Assembly (NCBI GenBank): GCA_013360745.1
Contig: JABWBA010000028.1
Coordinates: 1 to 38,177, forward strand
DNA: 38,177 bases
Reading direction: 5' to 3'
DNA from: Chthonomonadales bacterium
GTDB taxonomy: Bacteria; Armatimonadota; Chthonomonadetes; Chthonomonadales; CAJBBX01
Shown here one piece after another: positions 19,086 through 37,913 of this stretch. The notes beneath the pieces are model-generated. The model searched no databases. It had not been told where the DNA came from and saw only the letters and a list, made by a program, of their open reading frames with translations. The position numbers and the translations under genes were made by a program. Numbering within the stretch: the stretch's first letter is position 1; every line of letters starts with the position of its first letter.

Positions 19086-20270
19086 ATGGAACAGTTACGA
19101 ATCGGCATGATCGGTGTGGGCGGTCGGGGCGGCCTTTGGCGCCACTGGCACCAGCCCGAGAAGGGCCGCTCTCAGATCGTCGCAGGCGCCGACATCAGCG
19201 AAACCGCCCTTAATCGATTCTCATCCGAACACGGGGGCGATCCGTTCGCCACGCTCGATTACCGCCGACTGCTGGAGCGTCGCGATGTGGATGCCATCGC
19301 AGTGTGCTCACCCGATTTCTGCCACGAAGAACACGCTGTTGCGGTCCTTGAGTCGGGCAAGCACCTGTTCCTTGAAAAGCCGATGGCGATCTCCATCGCC
19401 GGCTGTGATCGCATCCTGGCGGCATGGCGCGCCTCGAACCGACGGATGATGATCGGTTTCAACATGCGCTATATGAACATCTTCCGCGTGATGAAAGAGG
19501 TCATCGACTCAGGCGCGATCGGTTCCCTCAAGGCGGTCTGGGTTCGTCATTTCGTGGGCCATGGCGGGGACTTCTACTATCACGATTGGCATGCGAACAG
19601 GGACAACACGAACTCCCTATTCCTCCAAAAAGGCTCGCATGACATCGATATGATCCACTGGCTTTCAGGCAGCTACACCCGCCGTGTATGCGCCATGGGC
19701 CGCCTCGATTACTTCGGCGGCTCTTATCCGAACGAGCTGACCTGCGACGTCTGCCCGGACGCAGCAACCTGCGTTGAAGCGCAGCCAGATAGCCCACGGA
19801 GACAATGCGCGTTTCGGTCCGAAGTCGATGTCGAGGACAACCAGATGGCGATGCTCGAGCTGGACAATGGCGTACAGGCGGCCTACCTCCAATGCCACTT
19901 CACACCGGACTACCACCGAAACTATGTGTTCATCGGCACGGAAGGTAGGCTCGAGAACTCGGAACCGGATATGAAGGTCTGGTTGAAAACGCGCCGATCC
20001 AATACCTACCGGGAGCTAGCGGACCGTGAATACACGATAAAGCCGGCTCGAGGCGGCCACGGCGGCGCGGATCCGGTGATCTGTGAAGATTTTCTCGATA
20101 TGGTTCTCGACGGCCGGGAACCGCTGGCGGATCCGATTGCCGGCCGCATGAGCGTCGCAGCGGGATGTGCGGCCGCCCAATCCCTCCGCGAGGGGAGCCG
20201 GCCTGTCGAGGTACCGCCGATTCCGGACGGCGCGTGCGCCCCGCCGGCGGGAACAGGGAACCATTCCTGA
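19086..20270 (+). CDS. Gfo/Idh/MocA-family oxidoreductase with a Cys-rich insert
   Basis: This 394-residue NAD(P)-dependent sugar or inositol dehydrogenase-like enzyme has an N-terminal Rossmann fold (MIGVGGRGG near 8-16, VCSPDFCHEEHAVAVL, and EKPMAIS with the catalytic-pocket EKP). The C-terminal domain follows (NSLFLQKGSHDIDMIHWLSG). An insert near 215-240 holds four Cys (CDVCPDAATC and a later C), which could bind metal. That insert recurs in some Gfo/Idh proteins of Planctomycetota and Armatimonadota. Its stop shares one base with the next start (TGATG), so it is translationally coupled to the CBM9-GH5-like gene. The pair probably acts on the same glycan-derived sugar. The substrate is unknown. 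Confidence 0.87.
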   Translation: MEQLRIGMIGVGGRGGLWRHWHQPEKGRSQIVAGADISETALNRFSSEHGGDPFATLDYRRLLERRDVDAIAVCSPDFCHEEHAVAVLESGKHLFLEKPMAISIAGCDRILAAWRASNRRMMIGFNMRYMNIFRVMKEVIDSGAIGSLKAVWVRHFVGHGGDFYYHDWHANRDNTNSLFLQKGSHDIDMIHWLSGSYTRRVCAMGRLDYFGGSYPNELTCDVCPDAATCVEAQPDSPRRQCAFRSEVDVEDNQMAMLELDNGVQAAYLQCHFTPDYHRNYVFIGTEGRLENSEPDMKVWLKTRRSNTYRELADREYTIKPARGGHGGADPVICEDFLDMVLDGREPLADPIAGRMSVAAGCAAAQSLREGSRPVEVPPIPDGACAPPAGTGNHS

Positions 20271-21970
20271 TGAGCCTGCCATTCGTCCCTACCTACCACT
20301 GCGCGCAGACGACGGATACCGTCGTAATCGACGGTTCCCTCTCGGAGTCGTGCTGGACCTCTGCGCAGGCAGAGACCCTCGTAGCGGCGTCGTCCGGGAC
20401 GATGACCCGGCCGCGCACTATCGTTCGCGCCTGCTGGAATGACACGCATCTCTACATCGCCTTCCAGTGTGACGACGACGACGTTTGGGGGTCGTATGAC
20501 TCCCACGATGACCCGATCTACGATGAAGAGGTCGTTGAGGTATTCATCAGCCCCGAGCGGCTGGCACGGTATGTGGAGATTGAGATCAGCCCTCGCGGTG
20601 TAACCTTCGATGCTGCCATTCACAGTCCAGACCTGGACCGACAGACGATGCAGACCGACCTCGCCTGGGAGTGCGTTGGCATGAAGGCCCGGATTCAATG
20701 CAACACGGTCGTGCATACGACCCCGCCGAAGGATCGAGACGACCACGGGCCACCCGGCGTCTGGACGGCAGAACTCGCCATACCGTTCGCCTCGCTGGGG
20801 CTCACGAAGCCGCCTGTGCCGGGATCCGAATGGCGGATCAACTTCTATCGCATCGATCGGGGTCTCCGATCGAGCTATCAGGCATGGTCACCGACGCTGC
20901 GCCGTCCAGCCGATTATCACGTGCCGGAACGGTTCGGGATCCTCCGCTTCGAGGATGCCCATACGGTTGCGCTCCATGCCCGGCGCTGGTCCGCAGCGAA
21001 GGCAAGGGCATGGTATAGGCGACAGCCCTGGCTCGTCGGCTGCAACTTCGTTCCGAGCAGCGCCTCCAATCAGCTCGAGATGTGGCAGGCGGCTACGTTC
21101 GATCCAGAGACGATCGATCGGGAGCTGGGCTGGGCCGCGAGTCTGGGTATGAACGTCGTGCGCGTCTATCTGCACGACCTCGCCTGGCAACAGGATCCAT
21201 CGGATCTGCGCATACGCATGGCACGCTATCTCACGCTTGCGGCGCGACACGGCATTCGCACGATCTTCGTTCTGTTCGACGATTGCTGGAACCCGGATCC
21301 GAAGCCGGGACGGCAGGCCGATCCGATCCCTGGCGTCCATAACTCACGATGGCTGCAGAGCCCGGGCAGGGCGATCGTGAACGACCCACGCGAATGGGAC
21401 CGCCTGCAGAGTTACGTCCTTGATATCCTGGGTGTCTTCGGTCAGGATCGGCGTATCCTCATGTGGGATCTGTACAATGAGCCCGGCAACGAGGGACAGG
21501 CGGAACGCTCTCTGCCCTTGCTGCGCAAGGCGTTCGAATGGGCACGAACGGCGAATCCGACACAACCGCTCACCGCCGGCGTATGGTTCGATCATGAGAT
21601 CCTGAACCAGTTTCAACTAGCCCACTCCGACATCATCACCTTCCACAACTACAAGGACGCCGCGACACTGGAGCAGCAGATTAAGGATCTCCATCAATGC
21701 GGCCGTCCTCTTGTCTGCACCGAATGGATGGCGAGGCCGGAGAGCGCGATCCCAACGCACCTCTCAGTCTTCCGGCGCCATAGGGTGGGTTGTCTTTCCT
21801 GGGGGCTGGTCTCGGGCAAGAGCCAGACGATCTATCCGTGGGGATCGCCCGCGGGCGGGCCGGAGCCGGCCGTATGGTTTCACGATCTGCTCCATCCCGA
21901 TGGGACACCGTACAGCCCTGCGGAGATCATGATCCTCCGGCAGGAGACGAACCGACCCGTACGCCCCTGA
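20270..21970 (+). CDS. CBM9-like domain fused to GH5-like glycoside hydrolase
   Basis: This 566-residue protein has two parts. Residues 1-230 look like a CBM9/DOMON-type carbohydrate-binding fold (VVIDGSLSESCWTSAQ, THLYIAFQCDDDDVW, EEVVEVFISPE, AELAIPFASLGL, EWRINFYRID). Residues 255-560 resemble a GH5-clan TIM barrel. WDLYNEPGN holds E404 as likely acid/base and PLVCTEWMA holds E485 as likely nucleophile. GMNVVRVYLHD and TIFVLFDDCWNP fit the barrel. There is no signal peptide, so it acts in the cytoplasm unless exported in an unusual way. It is co-translated with the Gfo/Idh gene. The GH assignment is by motif and order only. Confidence 0.78.
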   Translation: MSLPFVPTYHCAQTTDTVVIDGSLSESCWTSAQAETLVAASSGTMTRPRTIVRACWNDTHLYIAFQCDDDDVWGSYDSHDDPIYDEEVVEVFISPERLARYVEIEISPRGVTFDAAIHSPDLDRQTMQTDLAWECVGMKARIQCNTVVHTTPPKDRDDHGPPGVWTAELAIPFASLGLTKPPVPGSEWRINFYRIDRGLRSSYQAWSPTLRRPADYHVPERFGILRFEDAHTVALHARRWSAAKARAWYRRQPWLVGCNFVPSSASNQLEMWQAATFDPETIDRELGWAASLGMNVVRVYLHDLAWQQDPSDLRIRMARYLTLAARHGIRTIFVLFDDCWNPDPKPGRQADPIPGVHNSRWLQSPGRAIVNDPREWDRLQSYVLDILGVFGQDRRILMWDLYNEPGNEGQAERSLPLLRKAFEWARTANPTQPLTAGVWFDHEILNQFQLAHSDIITFHNYKDAATLEQQIKDLHQCGRPLVCTEWMARPESAIPTHLSVFRRHRVGCLSWGLVSGKSQTIYPWGSPAGGPEPAVWFHDLLHPDGTPYSPAEIMILRQETNRPVRP

Positions 21971-24868: not shown

Positions 24869-26440
24869 GTGCATCCGATACGACCGCTACCCGCAACCGA
24901 CGATCTCACCCTCGACGAGGCGATCGGACAGACGCTCTGCTTTGGATGGGGCGGCGAGAACCCTCAGGAAGCCAACGCCCACGCGCTCGAGCTCGTCGCG
25001 GACATGGGCGTTGGAGGCCTCGTTTTGCTCGGACGCAACGTCGCCAGCTCCGAGCGAATGTCAGCAACGATGGCCGATCTGCAAGCCCGCGCGGCGATCC
25101 CGCTCCTGGTCTCCATCGACCACGAAGGTGGCCTGGTCTGTCGATTCGCCGCGAGCCTCCACCGCTTCCCGGGCAATATGGCGCTGGCCGCAGGCGGGGA
25201 CCGGCGAACGACATCGGACCGCGCGTACCGACAGGGCGCCGCGCAGGCCGCCGAGCTCAGAAGCGTCGGGGTGAACTGGAACCTGGCTCCGTGCCTTGAT
25301 GTCAACAACAACCCCGACAATCCGGTCATCGGCGTCCGGTCCTATTCCGACGACCCGGAGGTTGTCGGCGCGCTGGGTGTGGCGGCGATCCGAGGGCTTC
25401 AAGACCATGGAGTCATGGCCTGCGGCAAGCATTTCCCCGGTCACGGCGATACCGATGTCGATTCCCATCTTGATCTCCCCACGATCCGAGGCGCCGTCGA
25501 GCGGTTGCGCCGCATCGAGTTGCCGCCCTTTATTGCCGCCATCAATGCCGGTGTCGGGGCCATTATGACCACGCACATTCGTTTTCCCTCGCTTGATCCT
25601 GAGTATCCCGCGACGCTTTCGTCGACGATACTTACCGAGCTCCTGCGTGGGTCACTCGGGTATGACGGCCTGATCGTGACCGATTGCCTCGAAATGGCGG
25701 CGATTGCAGCTTCTCCCGGCACGCCGCAAGGGGCCGTACGGGCGCTGCAAGCGGGCGCCGATATGGTTCTGGTCTGTCATACGCTGGAGACTCAGCGAGC
25801 GACGATCGATGCTATCCGAACTGCCATTCGATCGGGCGCCCTGCAGGAGGAGCGCATCAGGGAGGCTGCCGCTCGGGTCCTGGCGACGAAACGGCGTTTT
25901 CTCTTCCAGCCGCCCGCGCGTACTGTGGACCTCGGCGATATCGACGCATTGGAAACGGAGATCGCCAGAGCGTCAATCACGGTAGTCCGGGGTAAACCGA
26001 TTGCAGGCCTATCACCTGGATCGAGAGTTGCTGTTATCGGGTGCACCGATGTTAGCCATGACCTTACGGCGGCCCTCAGCATCCGTGGGATGGATGCGGT
26101 CGACCATCCGGTCACGACCGTAGAACCGGACGATGTCGCTTCGATCGTCTGTCGGCTCTCTGGCCTCAACGACGCGATCATCGCCGTTACCACATCCCGC
26201 ACTCCGTCGATCACCGCAGTTCAGACGGCGCTGATCCGAGCCCTGGACGCCGCTGCCGGCGACCGACTGATCGTGGCAGCCGTGGGAGGTCCCTACGATA
26301 TCCGCGCGTTCCCAGGTATTCGTCGCTATATCTGTACATACAGCAGCAGTGCAGCCAGCGTCGCTGCGTTGGCAGACGTACTCACCGGCGGCTATGAACC
26401 GTCAGGACGCCTTCCCGTTCGGATACCCGGCATCCACTGA
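24869..26440 (+). CDS. nagZ: Beta-N-acetylhexosaminidase (NagZ-like, GH3)
   Basis: This 523-residue GH3 enzyme removes N-acetylglucosamine from glycans or peptidoglycan fragments. IDHEGGLVCRF near 83-93, NLAPCLDVNNNPDNPVIGVRS (N-terminal barrel), KHFPGHGDTDVDSH near 187-200 and VTDCLEMAAI near 270-279 are the NagZ pattern. D272 is the likely nucleophile and D198-x-H200 the acid/base dyad. A second domain of about 190 residues follows, as in the longer NagZ proteins of Bacillus. No signal peptide is seen, which favours cytosolic muropeptide recycling. GTG 24869 is preceded by GAGGAGG about 11 bases upstream. ATP and sugar-kinase genes lie upstream in the opposite direction. Confidence 0.92.
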   Translation: MHPIRPLPATDDLTLDEAIGQTLCFGWGGENPQEANAHALELVADMGVGGLVLLGRNVASSERMSATMADLQARAAIPLLVSIDHEGGLVCRFAASLHRFPGNMALAAGGDRRTTSDRAYRQGAAQAAELRSVGVNWNLAPCLDVNNNPDNPVIGVRSYSDDPEVVGALGVAAIRGLQDHGVMACGKHFPGHGDTDVDSHLDLPTIRGAVERLRRIELPPFIAAINAGVGAIMTTHIRFPSLDPEYPATLSSTILTELLRGSLGYDGLIVTDCLEMAAIAASPGTPQGAVRALQAGADMVLVCHTLETQRATIDAIRTAIRSGALQEERIREAAARVLATKRRFLFQPPARTVDLGDIDALETEIARASITVVRGKPIAGLSPGSRVAVIGCTDVSHDLTAALSIRGMDAVDHPVTTVEPDDVASIVCRLSGLNDAIIAVTTSRTPSITAVQTALIRALDAAAGDRLIVAAVGGPYDIRAFPGIRRYICTYSSSAASVAALADVLTGGYEPSGRLPVRIPGIH

Positions 26441-26452
26441 CAGTGGACCCGG

Positions 26453-29400
26453 TTATTTCCAACGGATCTCCATCACATAGATGGAGCGCCCGGTCACCTC
26501 GAAACGACGGACGGCCCGGGCTGGAATGGGGACAGCTGGATCCGCTTCTGCCTGGTTCGTTCGCGTCTCGGTCACGGTCAGGCCGGCGCCCGGCAGGCCG
26601 TAGGTCGACGCGCTCCAATGGAACTCGCACCGCACGTTCTGTTCCTGGACGTTGGCGAAGATAAGCAGCAGTCGCTTCTCGTACGGGAGCCTCCAGGCGC
26701 CCGTCAGCACCGCAGGCGTGCTGACCCATGTCTCACCATACCAGGCCCAATCCGCCTTCACCATCGGCACAGATCCCCTGAGTACCGGCGGTCGCGCCAT
26801 CTCCCCTTGGGCGAAGTAGGAGACGAACCGATCTCTCAGACGCACCGCGTCCCGCAAAAAGGCTCCTGCAACGGGTTCTGCTGCAATAGCCGGGTTCATC
26901 CAACCGATCTGCTCGCCGAAGACGAGTTGCTGGCCGATTTTCATGCACAGCGCGAGATCGTGTGTGGTGGCTCCGGCGGCGTAGTTGCGACCGAAGTACT
27001 GAACGGCGCCGCCATAGATCGCCGGCAGCATCGGCACCATACCGTCATGCTGCCAGTCCCACGTTAACAACGCATCGACGTAGACCGCATACGGTTCGGC
27101 GGCGCATTCGGTGGTGATGAATCGGTCCGACGGCATCGCCTCGCGGATACGCTGCAGGAGTGGCCAATAGCCTAAGGTGGTCCACCAGCTTCCGCCGCCC
27201 AGCGGATGACCGTGGCTCGCATCCATGCAGAGTGCGGGAGCTGCGGCCGCGATCTGATCGATGTAGACCCCCTGGACGCCGACCTCAGTCATCAGACGGA
27301 GCACGATCTCACGCACCTTGTTCTGCCATAACGGAGTGGTCGGACACATTACGGCAAGCCGTACCGGACTGCCATCGGCTTCCTTGCTGCCATAGGTCTC
27401 GATAACGGGTTCGCCAGCGCTGTTCTTGGTGGCTGCCGGCGCCGCGACGCTCGTGAACTCGAAATCCGTTGCGCCTCGATCGCGTGTATCCCAGAGCCGT
27501 CCGTTGATATAGGGCATCACGCGGACTCCTGAGGACTGCAGATCGGCAACCGCCTCCGAGACACCGTCTCGCGTCGGGAAGTAATGGGGATAATCGTTAT
27601 CGAAGGGGATCTGATGCCAGTTGTACCAGTGGAAACCGATCGGAACACCCAGGGTTCGCTGCATGCCCTTCACGGGTTCAACGCAATCCGCGGGAGCGCC
27701 GCCCGTCTGCGCCCAAACATTCAGACGCTTGAGCCACTCCGGCGTGTCGGTACGGCCTTCAGCCCCAAGACGGGGATACCACGGCGCCCGAGCAATGACC
27801 CATGATCGATAGATTCGTGCGGCATCGAACCAGTCCCCTCGGAGCAGTCTCCAGATGGCGACGCCCGACTGTCGGTACGACCGGCCAGCAACGCCCATCT
27901 CCGGCGTCGGCGTCTCAAAGGCGAGATAGACGGTGCGTTCGTCGTCCCACCGCTGTCGTATCTCCTTCGCCGAGGCGCCCGGGTCATGGAAGGCGTAGTA
28001 GAGGCCGGTTCCAGCTCTGGGGGCGTAGACCGCCATCAGCTGCATCGTACACCAACCATTCGGGTATAGCGCAGAATGATCCAGGGTAGTCGAGTGGACG
28101 CTGCGGAGGACACCGGGTCCTGTCGGATAGAGCGCGATTGTGTCGGCGCCAAGGTCCCGGATCACTATGGAGGGATACGAGATTCGCTCGATACCACATC
28201 GCTCCGATGTATTCGCGACTTCGACATCCCAGGACCACGCAGCGGCCTTAGCGTCGCCTCGTGCCTTGAGCGTAACGGAGATCCCGCGGAACCTCGTATC
28301 CTCGTGGTCCCGCAGGTCCACATCGAAGCCGCCTCGTCGGTTGATCCAGCGGACCGTCTTCCATCCCTGATCCGAATCGGCGGAACAGGATTGGGCGTCG
28401 TCGGAGTTGCGATATGTCGCGCTTATTGACAGGATCGGCGGCTGTCGGGAGGCGGCGATCTCGGTTCTGCGCCCAAGGTCGTACAGACTGAGCAGACGGA
28501 TACCTCCCGATCCGAGATCGAATGCAGCAGCAGCGTCACCGGCCCGAACGAGGCGCACCGTCGACGTCGCAAGCGCCTTTGGCTCGCTTGCCGAACGGAG
28601 CACTGCCTCGGCATCTGGGAGCTTACCCTGCTCCAGCAGTCTCCGGGCGATTGAACCTCGCCACATCAGGCTCGGTGCGGCATCTGGCTTTTCAAATGGT
28701 GCGATCATTCGCTCGAACGATTCCGTCGTAACGACGACACGGCCCACGGCCCCTTGCCGGACAATCTTCTCCATCATCTGATCCACCTTCGTTGGCGCAC
28801 CGATCGACAATACCGCGCGTGTCGCATGGGAGGACGTGGCCCACGGCTGCCAGTACCCGTGCAGATATGTTCCGTATTCGCCACGGCCATCGTAGAACCG
28901 GACCGTGTTTGCTGCCAGCCCGATGGCGGCGCCGCTGCCGGACATCGATCCCCACCCCGATGAGGTTAACGACTTCATGGAGGCTGTGAACGTTCCGCCT
29001 GACGGAGCCTCACGACTGGCCCAATGATCGAAGAACGCGCTGGCTACATTGAGTTCGAGATGGTGCAGTTCCTCCCATCGGGTCGGCCTGGCCTGAACCA
29101 TCCACCCCTGACAGAGGATCGTCCCCAGACGGCGATCGAAGTACCAATCATAGACCGCGCGCGCTCCGTCCGGCGCCGGTGTACCATCGGGTGCGCAGTA
29201 CCGCGCTGAAGACCGGACGACGGTCATATCCTCCGTCTCCAGCAGGATTCTGGCCTCGGCCTTACGATCGTTCCTTAGGGAGTACGAACCGATGGCTGCC
29301 GTATGGATCCGATCGTTCCAGGTGTACTCCTTGAGTTCAGGGCCGTTCGGAAGCCATCGTATCGAAGTTGGCATGCCGCCCATTTCGCCCGGGACGAAGC

Positions 29401-29800
29401 CGATGGCGGCGGTAGCCATCGTAACCGTATAAGGAATAACGAGGGGACGCGTCGGCGCCGGCTCCAGGCGCGTCACCGTAACCCGTTGGCGGGATACCGC
29501 TCCCCGTGGCAGCACGAGCGTCGCTTCGTGTGGCTGCCTGTCGCGAACGATCGGATCCGGAATCACCCATCCGACGGCGCCCGTCGCGGGACCGAGCTTG
29601 AGCTTCAGCACGTTGCCGCCCCTATGGCGGCGATCCTGGAGCATCGACCAACCCGACAGACGCGCGATCGTCGTATCACGGGAGGGTATCCGATCGAGCT
29701 GAAGCATAAAACGTTGGGAAACAGGCGCAGCTCCCGCATCCGAATGCGCAATGGCAACCGCCGCCATGACGTATACTATGAATAAGCAACCATGCCGCAT
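26453..29800 (-). CDS. Secreted DUF6259-like putative glycoside hydrolase
   Basis: This is the largest gene, about 1115 residues. A signal peptide (MRHGCLFIVYVMAAVAIAHS) precedes a long beta-rich region (about 30-640). A TIM-barrel-like region covers about 690-1000. There GVYIDQIAAAAPALC gives a likely catalytic Asp, followed by HGHPLGGGSWW and TTECAAEPY. The closing part is a beta-sandwich. The order and the YIDQ, HGHPLGGG and TECAAEPY motifs match DUF6259-type proteins, which are related to retaining glycosidases of clan D or GH101 type. The substrate is unknown. ATG 29800 is preferred over 29812 because GGAG lies 6 bases upstream of it, inside the longer frame. It is transcribed alone, from its own promoter. 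Confidence 0.8.
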   Translation of the reverse strand: MRHGCLFIVYVMAAVAIAHSDAGAAPVSQRFMLQLDRIPSRDTTIARLSGWSMLQDRRHRGGNVLKLKLGPATGAVGWVIPDPIVRDRQPHEATLVLPRGAVSRQRVTVTRLEPAPTRPLVIPYTVTMATAAIGFVPGEMGGMPTSIRWLPNGPELKEYTWNDRIHTAAIGSYSLRNDRKAEARILLETEDMTVVRSSARYCAPDGTPAPDGARAVYDWYFDRRLGTILCQGWMVQARPTRWEELHHLELNVASAFFDHWASREAPSGGTFTASMKSLTSSGWGSMSGSGAAIGLAANTVRFYDGRGEYGTYLHGYWQPWATSSHATRAVLSIGAPTKVDQMMEKIVRQGAVGRVVVTTESFERMIAPFEKPDAAPSLMWRGSIARRLLEQGKLPDAEAVLRSASEPKALATSTVRLVRAGDAAAAFDLGSGGIRLLSLYDLGRRTEIAASRQPPILSISATYRNSDDAQSCSADSDQGWKTVRWINRRGGFDVDLRDHEDTRFRGISVTLKARGDAKAAAWSWDVEVANTSERCGIERISYPSIVIRDLGADTIALYPTGPGVLRSVHSTTLDHSALYPNGWCTMQLMAVYAPRAGTGLYYAFHDPGASAKEIRQRWDDERTVYLAFETPTPEMGVAGRSYRQSGVAIWRLLRGDWFDAARIYRSWVIARAPWYPRLGAEGRTDTPEWLKRLNVWAQTGGAPADCVEPVKGMQRTLGVPIGFHWYNWHQIPFDNDYPHYFPTRDGVSEAVADLQSSGVRVMPYINGRLWDTRDRGATDFEFTSVAAPAATKNSAGEPVIETYGSKEADGSPVRLAVMCPTTPLWQNKVREIVLRLMTEVGVQGVYIDQIAAAAPALCMDASHGHPLGGGSWWTTLGYWPLLQRIREAMPSDRFITTECAAEPYAVYVDALLTWDWQHDGMVPMLPAIYGGAVQYFGRNYAAGATTHDLALCMKIGQQLVFGEQIGWMNPAIAAEPVAGAFLRDAVRLRDRFVSYFAQGEMARPPVLRGSVPMVKADWAWYGETWVSTPAVLTGAWRLPYEKRLLLIFANVQEQNVRCEFHWSASTYGLPGAGLTVTETRTNQAEADPAVPIPARAVRRFEVTGRSIYVMEIRWK

Positions 29801-29847
29801 GTACTGCTCCATCGTATCGGATCGGTTCGTCTACACCGTCGACCATC

Positions 29848-29876
29848 ATTCTAGATGTTTCCTCGGGACAGGTCAA
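29848..29876 (-). promoter_or_regulatory. Sigma-70 promoter of the DUF6259-like gene
   Basis: On the reverse strand TTGACC (29876-29871) and TAGAAT (29853-29848) are separated by exactly 17 bases. The leader to ATG 29800 is about 40 bases. The -10 matches that of the promoter at 37885. Confidence 0.7.
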
Positions 29877-37884: not shown

Positions 37885-37913
37885 TTGACGGCGCCGATGG
37901 ACTCTGTTAGAAT
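37885..37913 (+). promoter_or_regulatory. Sigma-70 promoter of the last gene
   Basis: TTGACG at 37885-37890 and TAGAAT at 37908-37913 are separated by exactly 17 bases. The leader to ATG 37939 is about 20 bases and contains GGAGG. It is the clearest forward promoter in the window. Confidence 0.7.

Follow-up and report, generated by a model that had tools for sequence, protein, structure and literature searches.

The window analysed here is a stretch of 38,177 nucleotides that forms a whole contig (C123) of a draft Chthonomonadales genome (3.32 Mb, 97% complete, 127 contigs). On its minus strand, at 26453..29800, lies a gene for a protein of the family DUF6259, flanked by two oppositely oriented genes: a plus-strand gene of glycoside hydrolase family 3 (GH3) ends 12 bases from it in a convergent arrangement, and a plus-strand KorA gene starts on the other side in a divergent one. 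A first-pass annotation of this DNA had described a single-gene unit, which agrees with this geometry, encoding a secreted DUF6259-like protein of 1115 residues with a barrel and a candidate catalytic Asp, behind a near-consensus promoter. The family, the secretion signal, the barrel, the Asp candidate, and the promoter were retained, whereas the nearest fold and one proposed motif, TECAAEPY, had to be revised.

The open frame on the minus strand spans 26453..29812 and corresponds to 1119 amino acids, while translation from an in-frame ATG at 29800 yields the 1115 residues of the earlier description. Because a GGAG (29810..29807) can be read six bases upstream of this ATG, the 1115-residue start was preferred over the start of the frame. 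Residue numbers below follow the 1115-residue form; the range of the Pfam match refers to the 1119-residue form. The start of the protein resembles a signal peptide, in line with the earlier proposal: residues 1 to about 24 (29729..29800, minus strand; putative cleavage site) show a mean hydropathy of 2.75 across residues 5–18, with AGA/AP next on reading of the sequence, and the protein is probably secreted.

The family assignment was borne out by a match to the full DUF6259 profile (PF19773, positions 1–300) with an E value of 2e-92 and a score of 310 bits, the cut-off being 28.7. At E values up to 1, DUF6259 was the only Pfam family listed, and the profiles of GH129 (PF11308), GH101, GH36, and GH31 gave no match. 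NCBIfam returned no family for the protein, and comparison of its sequence alone with the PDB gave nothing useful (best E value 0.98). In the literature library searched, queries for DUF6259, PF19773, and cd14736 found no paper naming the family, and a search on new glycoside hydrolase families found no matching one.

The DUF6259 profile matched 24 of 41 genomes of the family, order, and phylum, the bacterium's own included, at E values up to 0.001 (21 of them over the cut-off), and none of 14 control genomes. The window protein itself, used as query, matched 87 of 291 genomes in the phylum at E values up to 1e-30. A scan of genome contigs gave 48 pattern matches, from which 41 relatives were obtained; they carried the labels Armatimonadota, Planctomycetota, Verrucomicrobiota, Hydrogenedentota, Lentisphaeria, and Poribacteria, with one Prevotellaceae and a few unplaced bacteria. 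Two alignments were used: one of 41 rows, which leaves out the partial sequence L075, and one of 72 rows, which leaves out frames shorter than 350 amino acids and rows whose final 200 residues repeat those of a row already included. The genome itself also holds a second, distant DUF6259 protein (G000:C41:2524-3084, E value 4.9e-15) and a distant protein matching the GH129 profile (G000:C28:74901-75797, E value 1.6e-19).

An AlphaFold model built from 41 sequences (predicted local distance difference test, pLDDT, 88.4; predicted template modelling score, pTM, 0.85) placed an extra N-terminal super-sandwich, a second super-sandwich, a (beta/alpha)8 barrel, and a C-terminal beta domain in this order. 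The core super-sandwich (about residues 415–652; 27845..28558, minus strand) aligned to the GH129 enzyme NagBb from residue 415. The barrel (about residues 656–1000; 26801..27835, minus strand), already part of the first description, is supported by the DUF6259 profile match, and DSSP assigned its strands to residues 695–700, 721–726, 759–766, 844–848, 894–897, 910–913, 933–937, and 964–968. The C-terminal beta domain (about residues 1013–1115; 26456..26764, minus strand) was likewise delimited by DSSP.

Structural relatives were taken from the best 50 rows each of VIA and Foldseek. The best VIA match was NagBb (5wzp_A; Z 26.5; root-mean-square deviation, rmsd, 3.1; 541 aligned; model residues 415..1109), followed by DagB (5opq_D; Z 24.3; rmsd 4.4; 561 aligned) and FpGalNase (9ayu_A; Z 23.4; rmsd 4.7; 593 aligned), which carries the GH36 label. 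The GH36 enzyme AgaA (4fnp_A) reached Z 21.3 with rmsd 6.8 over 611 aligned positions. Foldseek listed FpGalNase first (8x1b, 2.1e-20) and DagB second (5opq_A, 1.0e-19), with GH36 from rank 6 (3.4e-18), GH31 from rank 27 (6.3e-15), and GH101 from rank 28 (3ecq, 9.9e-15; also 5a59), and the target-normalised TM of NagBb (5wzq_A, 0.68) was the highest among the 50 rows. GH101, GH36, and GH31, against which the first-pass annotation had suggested comparing the structure, were all matched in Foldseek, but the best VIA matches were GH129 NagBb and then DagB instead; GH31 and GH101 were absent among the best 50 VIA rows, which was not taken as exclusion. The same annotation had stated that, to its knowledge, no substrate was established for the family, and that a structural match to a characterised family with known substrate would refute its reading. 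Such a match exists for the fold only; with a sequence identity of 12–15% to the structural relatives (VIA alignments) and no GH129 profile match, the substrate is not transferable.

Two acidic residues of the barrel are candidates for catalysis. The proposed nucleophile, D848 of the motif YIDQ (27257..27259, minus strand), is the last residue of strand 4 (844–848) in the DSSP assignment and is present in 40 of the 40 rows of the 41-row alignment that have a letter there. The proposed general acid/base, E898 of TTEC (27107..27109, minus strand), follows directly after strand 5 (894–897) and is found in 39 of 39 such rows. When the DUF6259 alignment (40 of the 41 rows) was compared by hhalign with nine rows matching the GH129 profile, a probability of 67.9% and an E value of 4.9e-5 were obtained, and D848 was paired with the GH129 Asp. 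Thus, the Asp of YIDQ stands as the catalytic candidate of the first description.

In the GH129 rows this Asp aligns with the NagBb segment AYLDV, which ends at 436, so that it is D435 by counting; counted in the same way, LTSSE of NagBb ends at 478 and NGTE of DagB at 517. We take E478 to be the acid/base of NagBb and D435 to stand at the end of its strand 4. The DagB paper (PMC5698469) names D435 of NagBb as catalytic, gives the DagB mutants of D486, E517, E531, and D202 as inactive, and states that DagB needs Asp202 from the partner subunit and that, of the two catalytic residues of NagBb, only the Asp is conserved; in the GH129 alignments, however, DagB E517 and NagBb E478 share one profile column. 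The assignment of E898 as acid/base is proposed from its strand position, its invariance, and the likeness of the motif, and a Glu after strand 5 points to the GH129/GH101 arrangement rather than that of GH31/GH36.

The conservation of the motifs named earlier was largely confirmed: YIDQ is nearly invariant in the 41 sequences, and so are the two His and the GGG of HGHPLGGG. TECAAEPY, in contrast, is not the form conserved in the family, which is TTECNAEP; position 900 is Asn in 65 of 67 relatives outside a small clade around the window protein (see below) and Ala in none of them.

With this set of features, we consider it likely that the window protein is a secreted retaining alpha-glycosidase with a GH129/GH101-like build and mechanism. 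Such an enzyme would remove or cut an alpha-linked sugar in two steps: Asp848, the residue that closes barrel strand 4, would attack the anomeric carbon, and Glu898, right after strand 5, would protonate the leaving sugar and then activate water. The catalytic core (about residues 415–1115) would work like the alpha-N-acetylgalactosaminidases of GH129 and GH101, while the N-terminal super-sandwich might extend the substrate site, give it its shape, or promote oligomerisation. DUF6259 is a widespread family without recorded function, and its candidate catalytic residues, together with the nearest solved fold, make such an activity testable.

Several observations weigh against this assignment. 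When the barrels alone were compared by hhalign (one gap-rich row of the 72 left out), the probability fell to 3.9% with an E value of 0.011, the Asp still being paired, and neither hhalign run paired E898 with the GH129 Glu. Foldseek placed NagBb (5wzq_A, 1.4e-16) 21st, behind FpGalNase, DagB, and many GH36 chains. In VIA, GH13-type chains, matched in the barrel part, and GH36 reached Z values of about 20–21, so that the fold alone cannot fix the bond that is cut. In other phyla, no conserved neighbourhood was found among the 83 open reading frames (ORFs) nearest the DUF6259 gene, where families other than the GFO/IDH/MocA oxidoreductases occurred at most twice each. Finally, the sequence similarity to GH129 is thin, and because PF11308 gave no match to the window protein at E values up to 1, the protein was not placed in GH129.

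A comparison of the relatives pointed to a lineage-specific change near the predicted active site. In a tree of 71 rows calculated by a quick method, without columns 900, 915, and 925 and without one gap-rich row of the 72, the window protein formed a clade with L077 (genome G010) and L105 (genome G007) with a support of 97 (Shimodaira–Hasegawa-like approximate likelihood ratio test, SH-aLRT). The comparison covered the 186 core columns in which conservation among the other 69 rows reaches at least 85%; the window protein differs at 11 of these columns, six of which lie between 900 and 928. The only changes common to the clade at these columns are N900A (27101..27103), H915D just after barrel strand 6 (27056..27058; outside the clade, 62 of 67 relatives have His), and F925L in the helix after strand 6 (27026..27028; Phe in 64 of 67), all on the minus strand, and the letters of the clade at these positions are found in no other row. 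L105 covers the protein from about residue 717 on, and earlier columns compare two clade members; column 945, filled in a single other row, was dropped. Some distant rows depart at up to 60 conserved columns: it is not the number of changes in the clade that is remarkable, but their sharing and clustering.

Since the three changes cluster in a span that begins directly behind strand 5 and reaches into the helix following strand 6, they suggest a shift of specificity in the clade, and the linked positions offer a natural comparison pair for residues that set substrate choice. A broader reading is possible but rather doubtful, namely that DUF6259 makes up a glycoside hydrolase family of its own, as yet unassigned, whose members in Armatimonadota, Planctomycetota, Verrucomicrobiota, and Hydrogenedentota act on one conserved substrate, and that N900A, H915D, and F925L have retooled the active site of the Armatimonadota clade for a different alpha-linked sugar or for acid catalysis shared by E898 and D915.

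The extra N-terminal module (residues 25–410; 28571..29728, minus strand) was recognised from the AlphaFold model and its fold matches as a mutarotase-like super-sandwich with a helical linker. Folded alone from 12 sequences, it reached a pLDDT of 86.3 and a pTM of 0.87. The VIA comparison gave 9ayu_A (Z 16.0; rmsd 3.1; 213 aligned) and the GH174 fucanases 9k1g_A (Z 16.0; rmsd 3.2; 241 aligned) and 8jd7_A (Z 16.0; rmsd 3.5; 243 aligned), with GH38 and PL26 next at Z 15 to 16; because rows within one Z are ties, no single relative is named. Pfam assigned no family to the module of the window protein at E values up to 1 and gave weak TPR-like matches across 12 members, the best of them in 3 of the 12, while a sequence comparison with the PDB produced nothing better than E 0.85.

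Among the 72 aligned rows the module is present in 39, absent in 31, and in between in two; of the rows without it, L105 is truncated where its contig ends, and L101 represents only one part of a gene that runs over two frames, the other part of which carries the module. Long and short forms are mixed within supported clades of the quick tree, and the module was therefore probably lost or gained more than once. A search with the module gave 16 matches in 14 of 41 genomes, 15 of them in frames that also match the core; the sixteenth (G006:C110, 324 amino acids) seems to be the missing half of a gene whose parts lie on two contigs. When the fetched loci, a sample biased by having been fetched by DUF6259, were scanned in six frames, 62 of 63 module matches shared a frame with the core, and the lone exception, a short piece of L038 in another frame that overlaps the DUF6259 ORF of this locus, is probably due to a frameshift. 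In L038 and L101 (G188:C22), the DUF6259 gene occupies two frames that overlap or adjoin each other, which looks like a frameshift in the record.

Upstream of the gene, a consensus scan found a sigma-70-like promoter, TTGACC-17-TAGAAT (29848..29876, minus strand), with 10 of 12 consensus letters and its 3' end 47 bases upstream of the ATG. At a threshold of 9 of 12, a scan of 3.8 kb gave one site versus 1.2 expected from shuffles; for the 186-base upstream gap, however, only 0.4% of 5000 dinucleotide shuffles contained a site with at least 10 of 12 letters, compared with 6% at 9 of 12, and the minus strand of the whole window holds only two promoter-like sites of at least 10 of 12. The orthologue in G010 has near-identical hexamers (TTGACG-17-TAGAAT) at the matching upstream place. 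It was the sole exception among the ten orthologue upstream regions scanned, the other nine of which showed no site with at least 9 of 12 letters; L024 had just 110 bases upstream, and the start codons of several orthologues are uncertain. The exact core TTGACN18TAGAAT occurs in six copies in the genome versus none for the reversed control and none for a scrambled pattern. We regard the promoter as credible on these counts, and the near-consensus character first attributed to it stands. A second copy of the core lies at 37885–37913 on the plus strand, near the right end of the window.

The convergent neighbour (24869..26440, plus strand) is a NagZ-like GH3 protein, with an NCBIfam beta-N-acetylhexosaminidase score of 217.8 against a cut-off of 207, and among solved structures it is closest in sequence to the beta-N-acetylglucosaminidase 6k5j; on reading, it has no signal peptide. 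In the window, in G010, and in G007, genes for PEPCK, PfkB, and GH3 precede the DUF6259 gene in this order, with an ORF designated X between PfkB and GH3 in G010 and G007. G009, G011, and G006 have DUF6259, X, and PfkB but no GH3, and the stretch of G004 that was searched held X and relatives of GFO/IDH and GT4, with neither GH3 nor PfkB. ORF X (L026:10652-11674, minus strand; relatives in L022, L023, L024, L028, and L031) recurs near DUF6259, mostly beside PfkB. It matched no Pfam or NCBIfam family, and its limits are unsure, as it overlaps a PfkB match on the other strand in several loci.

The tail-to-tail position in three genomes, the GH3 score above the beta-N-acetylhexosaminidase cut-off, and the occurrence of enzymes releasing N-acetylgalactosamine (GalNAc) among the nearest folds (VIA; PMC8106489) could be explained if both proteins acted on one material containing N-acetylglucosamine or GalNAc, such as a cell-wall or mucin-like glycan. 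This would be compatible with the alpha-glycosidase assignment; however, we consider it unlikely, given that the genes are convergent and not in an operon, that PfkB and X stand beside DUF6259 with no GH3 between in three genomes while the searched stretch of G004 lacks both PfkB and GH3, and that a GH3 protein without a signal peptide would probably be in a different compartment. Since the GH3 gene is convergent and its product lacks a signal peptide, no shared pathway with the DUF6259 protein is claimed.

A polysaccharide-utilisation context was also sought in the other phyla, where the 83 nearest ORFs had been hand-picked from 190 and not validated as genes. The GFO/IDH/MocA oxidoreductases were the commonest family (6 of the 83 ORFs); among the 25 most frequent of 83 families, eleven others occurred twice each (CBM_4_9, CstA, and TatC among them) and the remaining ones once each, with one sulfatase and one GH95 among the families listed. 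L048, L057, and L059 do not appear here, since the simple gene caller chose an antisense ORF over that of DUF6259. The context points to no substrate. In the window itself, a GFO/IDH/MocA ORF (19086–20270) overlaps a CBM9-domain ORF (20165–21970), both on the plus strand, by about 105 bases, and one of the two starts may be set too early; a relative of the CBM9 protein (58% identity) also lies near the DUF6259 gene of G007.

The strong Foldseek matches to GH36 (from 3.4e-18, above NagBb) and GH31 (from 6.3e-15) raise the question of an enzyme resembling the alpha-galactosidases of GH31/GH36. The acid/base of these families is an Asp after strand 6, and in the window protein and two orthologues D915 occupies the place directly behind strand 6, so that Asp848 would be the nucleophile and D915 the acid/base. 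We regard this as improbable: with His at position 915 in most relatives outside the clade, D915 cannot be the acid/base of the DUF6259 family, while E898 is invariant wherever a letter is present, and the VIA Z value is 26.5 for NagBb versus 21.3 for GH36. Still less probable is a carbohydrate protein that has retained this fold but is not catalytic or acts in another way (a binding protein, a lyase, or a structural surface protein). Such a protein would suit an N-terminal module resembling super-sandwiches of many contexts, PL26 and GH38 included, and the absence from the literature search of a paper naming the family. Against it stands the complete or nearly complete invariance of both acidic residues and of much of HWYNWHQIPFDNDYPH, PYINGRLWDTRD, and HGHPLGGG in 41 sequences, which come from no fewer than five named phyla.

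The predicted retaining alpha-glycosidase can be compared with known systems as follows. With GH129 NagBb (5WZN/5WZP), the window protein has in common the super-sandwich, the barrel, and the C-terminal beta domain (residues 415–1111) and the Asp of YID/YLD, and the Glu motif after strand 5 is alike by position; it differs in the identity of about 12–13%, the lack of a PF11308 match, and the added N-terminal module. The GH129-like DagB/ZgGH129 (3,6-anhydro-D-galactosidase, 5OPQ) is second in both VIA and Foldseek with an identity of 14–15%, and the profile of the DUF6259 relatives touches it by sequence with an E value of 0.0049, mainly in the DagB N-terminal sandwich. The GH36 alpha-galactosidases, FpGalNase, and GH31 are matched strongly by Foldseek across most of the core, and FpGalNase and GH36 also by VIA, although the Z values of GH36 are lower than those of GH129. 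GH101 endo-alpha-N-acetylgalactosaminidase is matched by Foldseek (3ecq), and PDB titles name a mutated pair, D764 and E796; the GH101 proteins are larger, however, the listed chains having 1100–1336 residues. With the other members of DUF6259 (PF19773), the window protein shares the full-length profile match, both catalytic candidates (Asp and Glu), and the principal motifs, whereas the additional super-sandwich at its N-terminus, which 31 of 72 rows lack, and the changes N900A, H915D, and F925L set it apart. The enzyme type is recognisable though uncharacterised, and it carries a change specific to this lineage.

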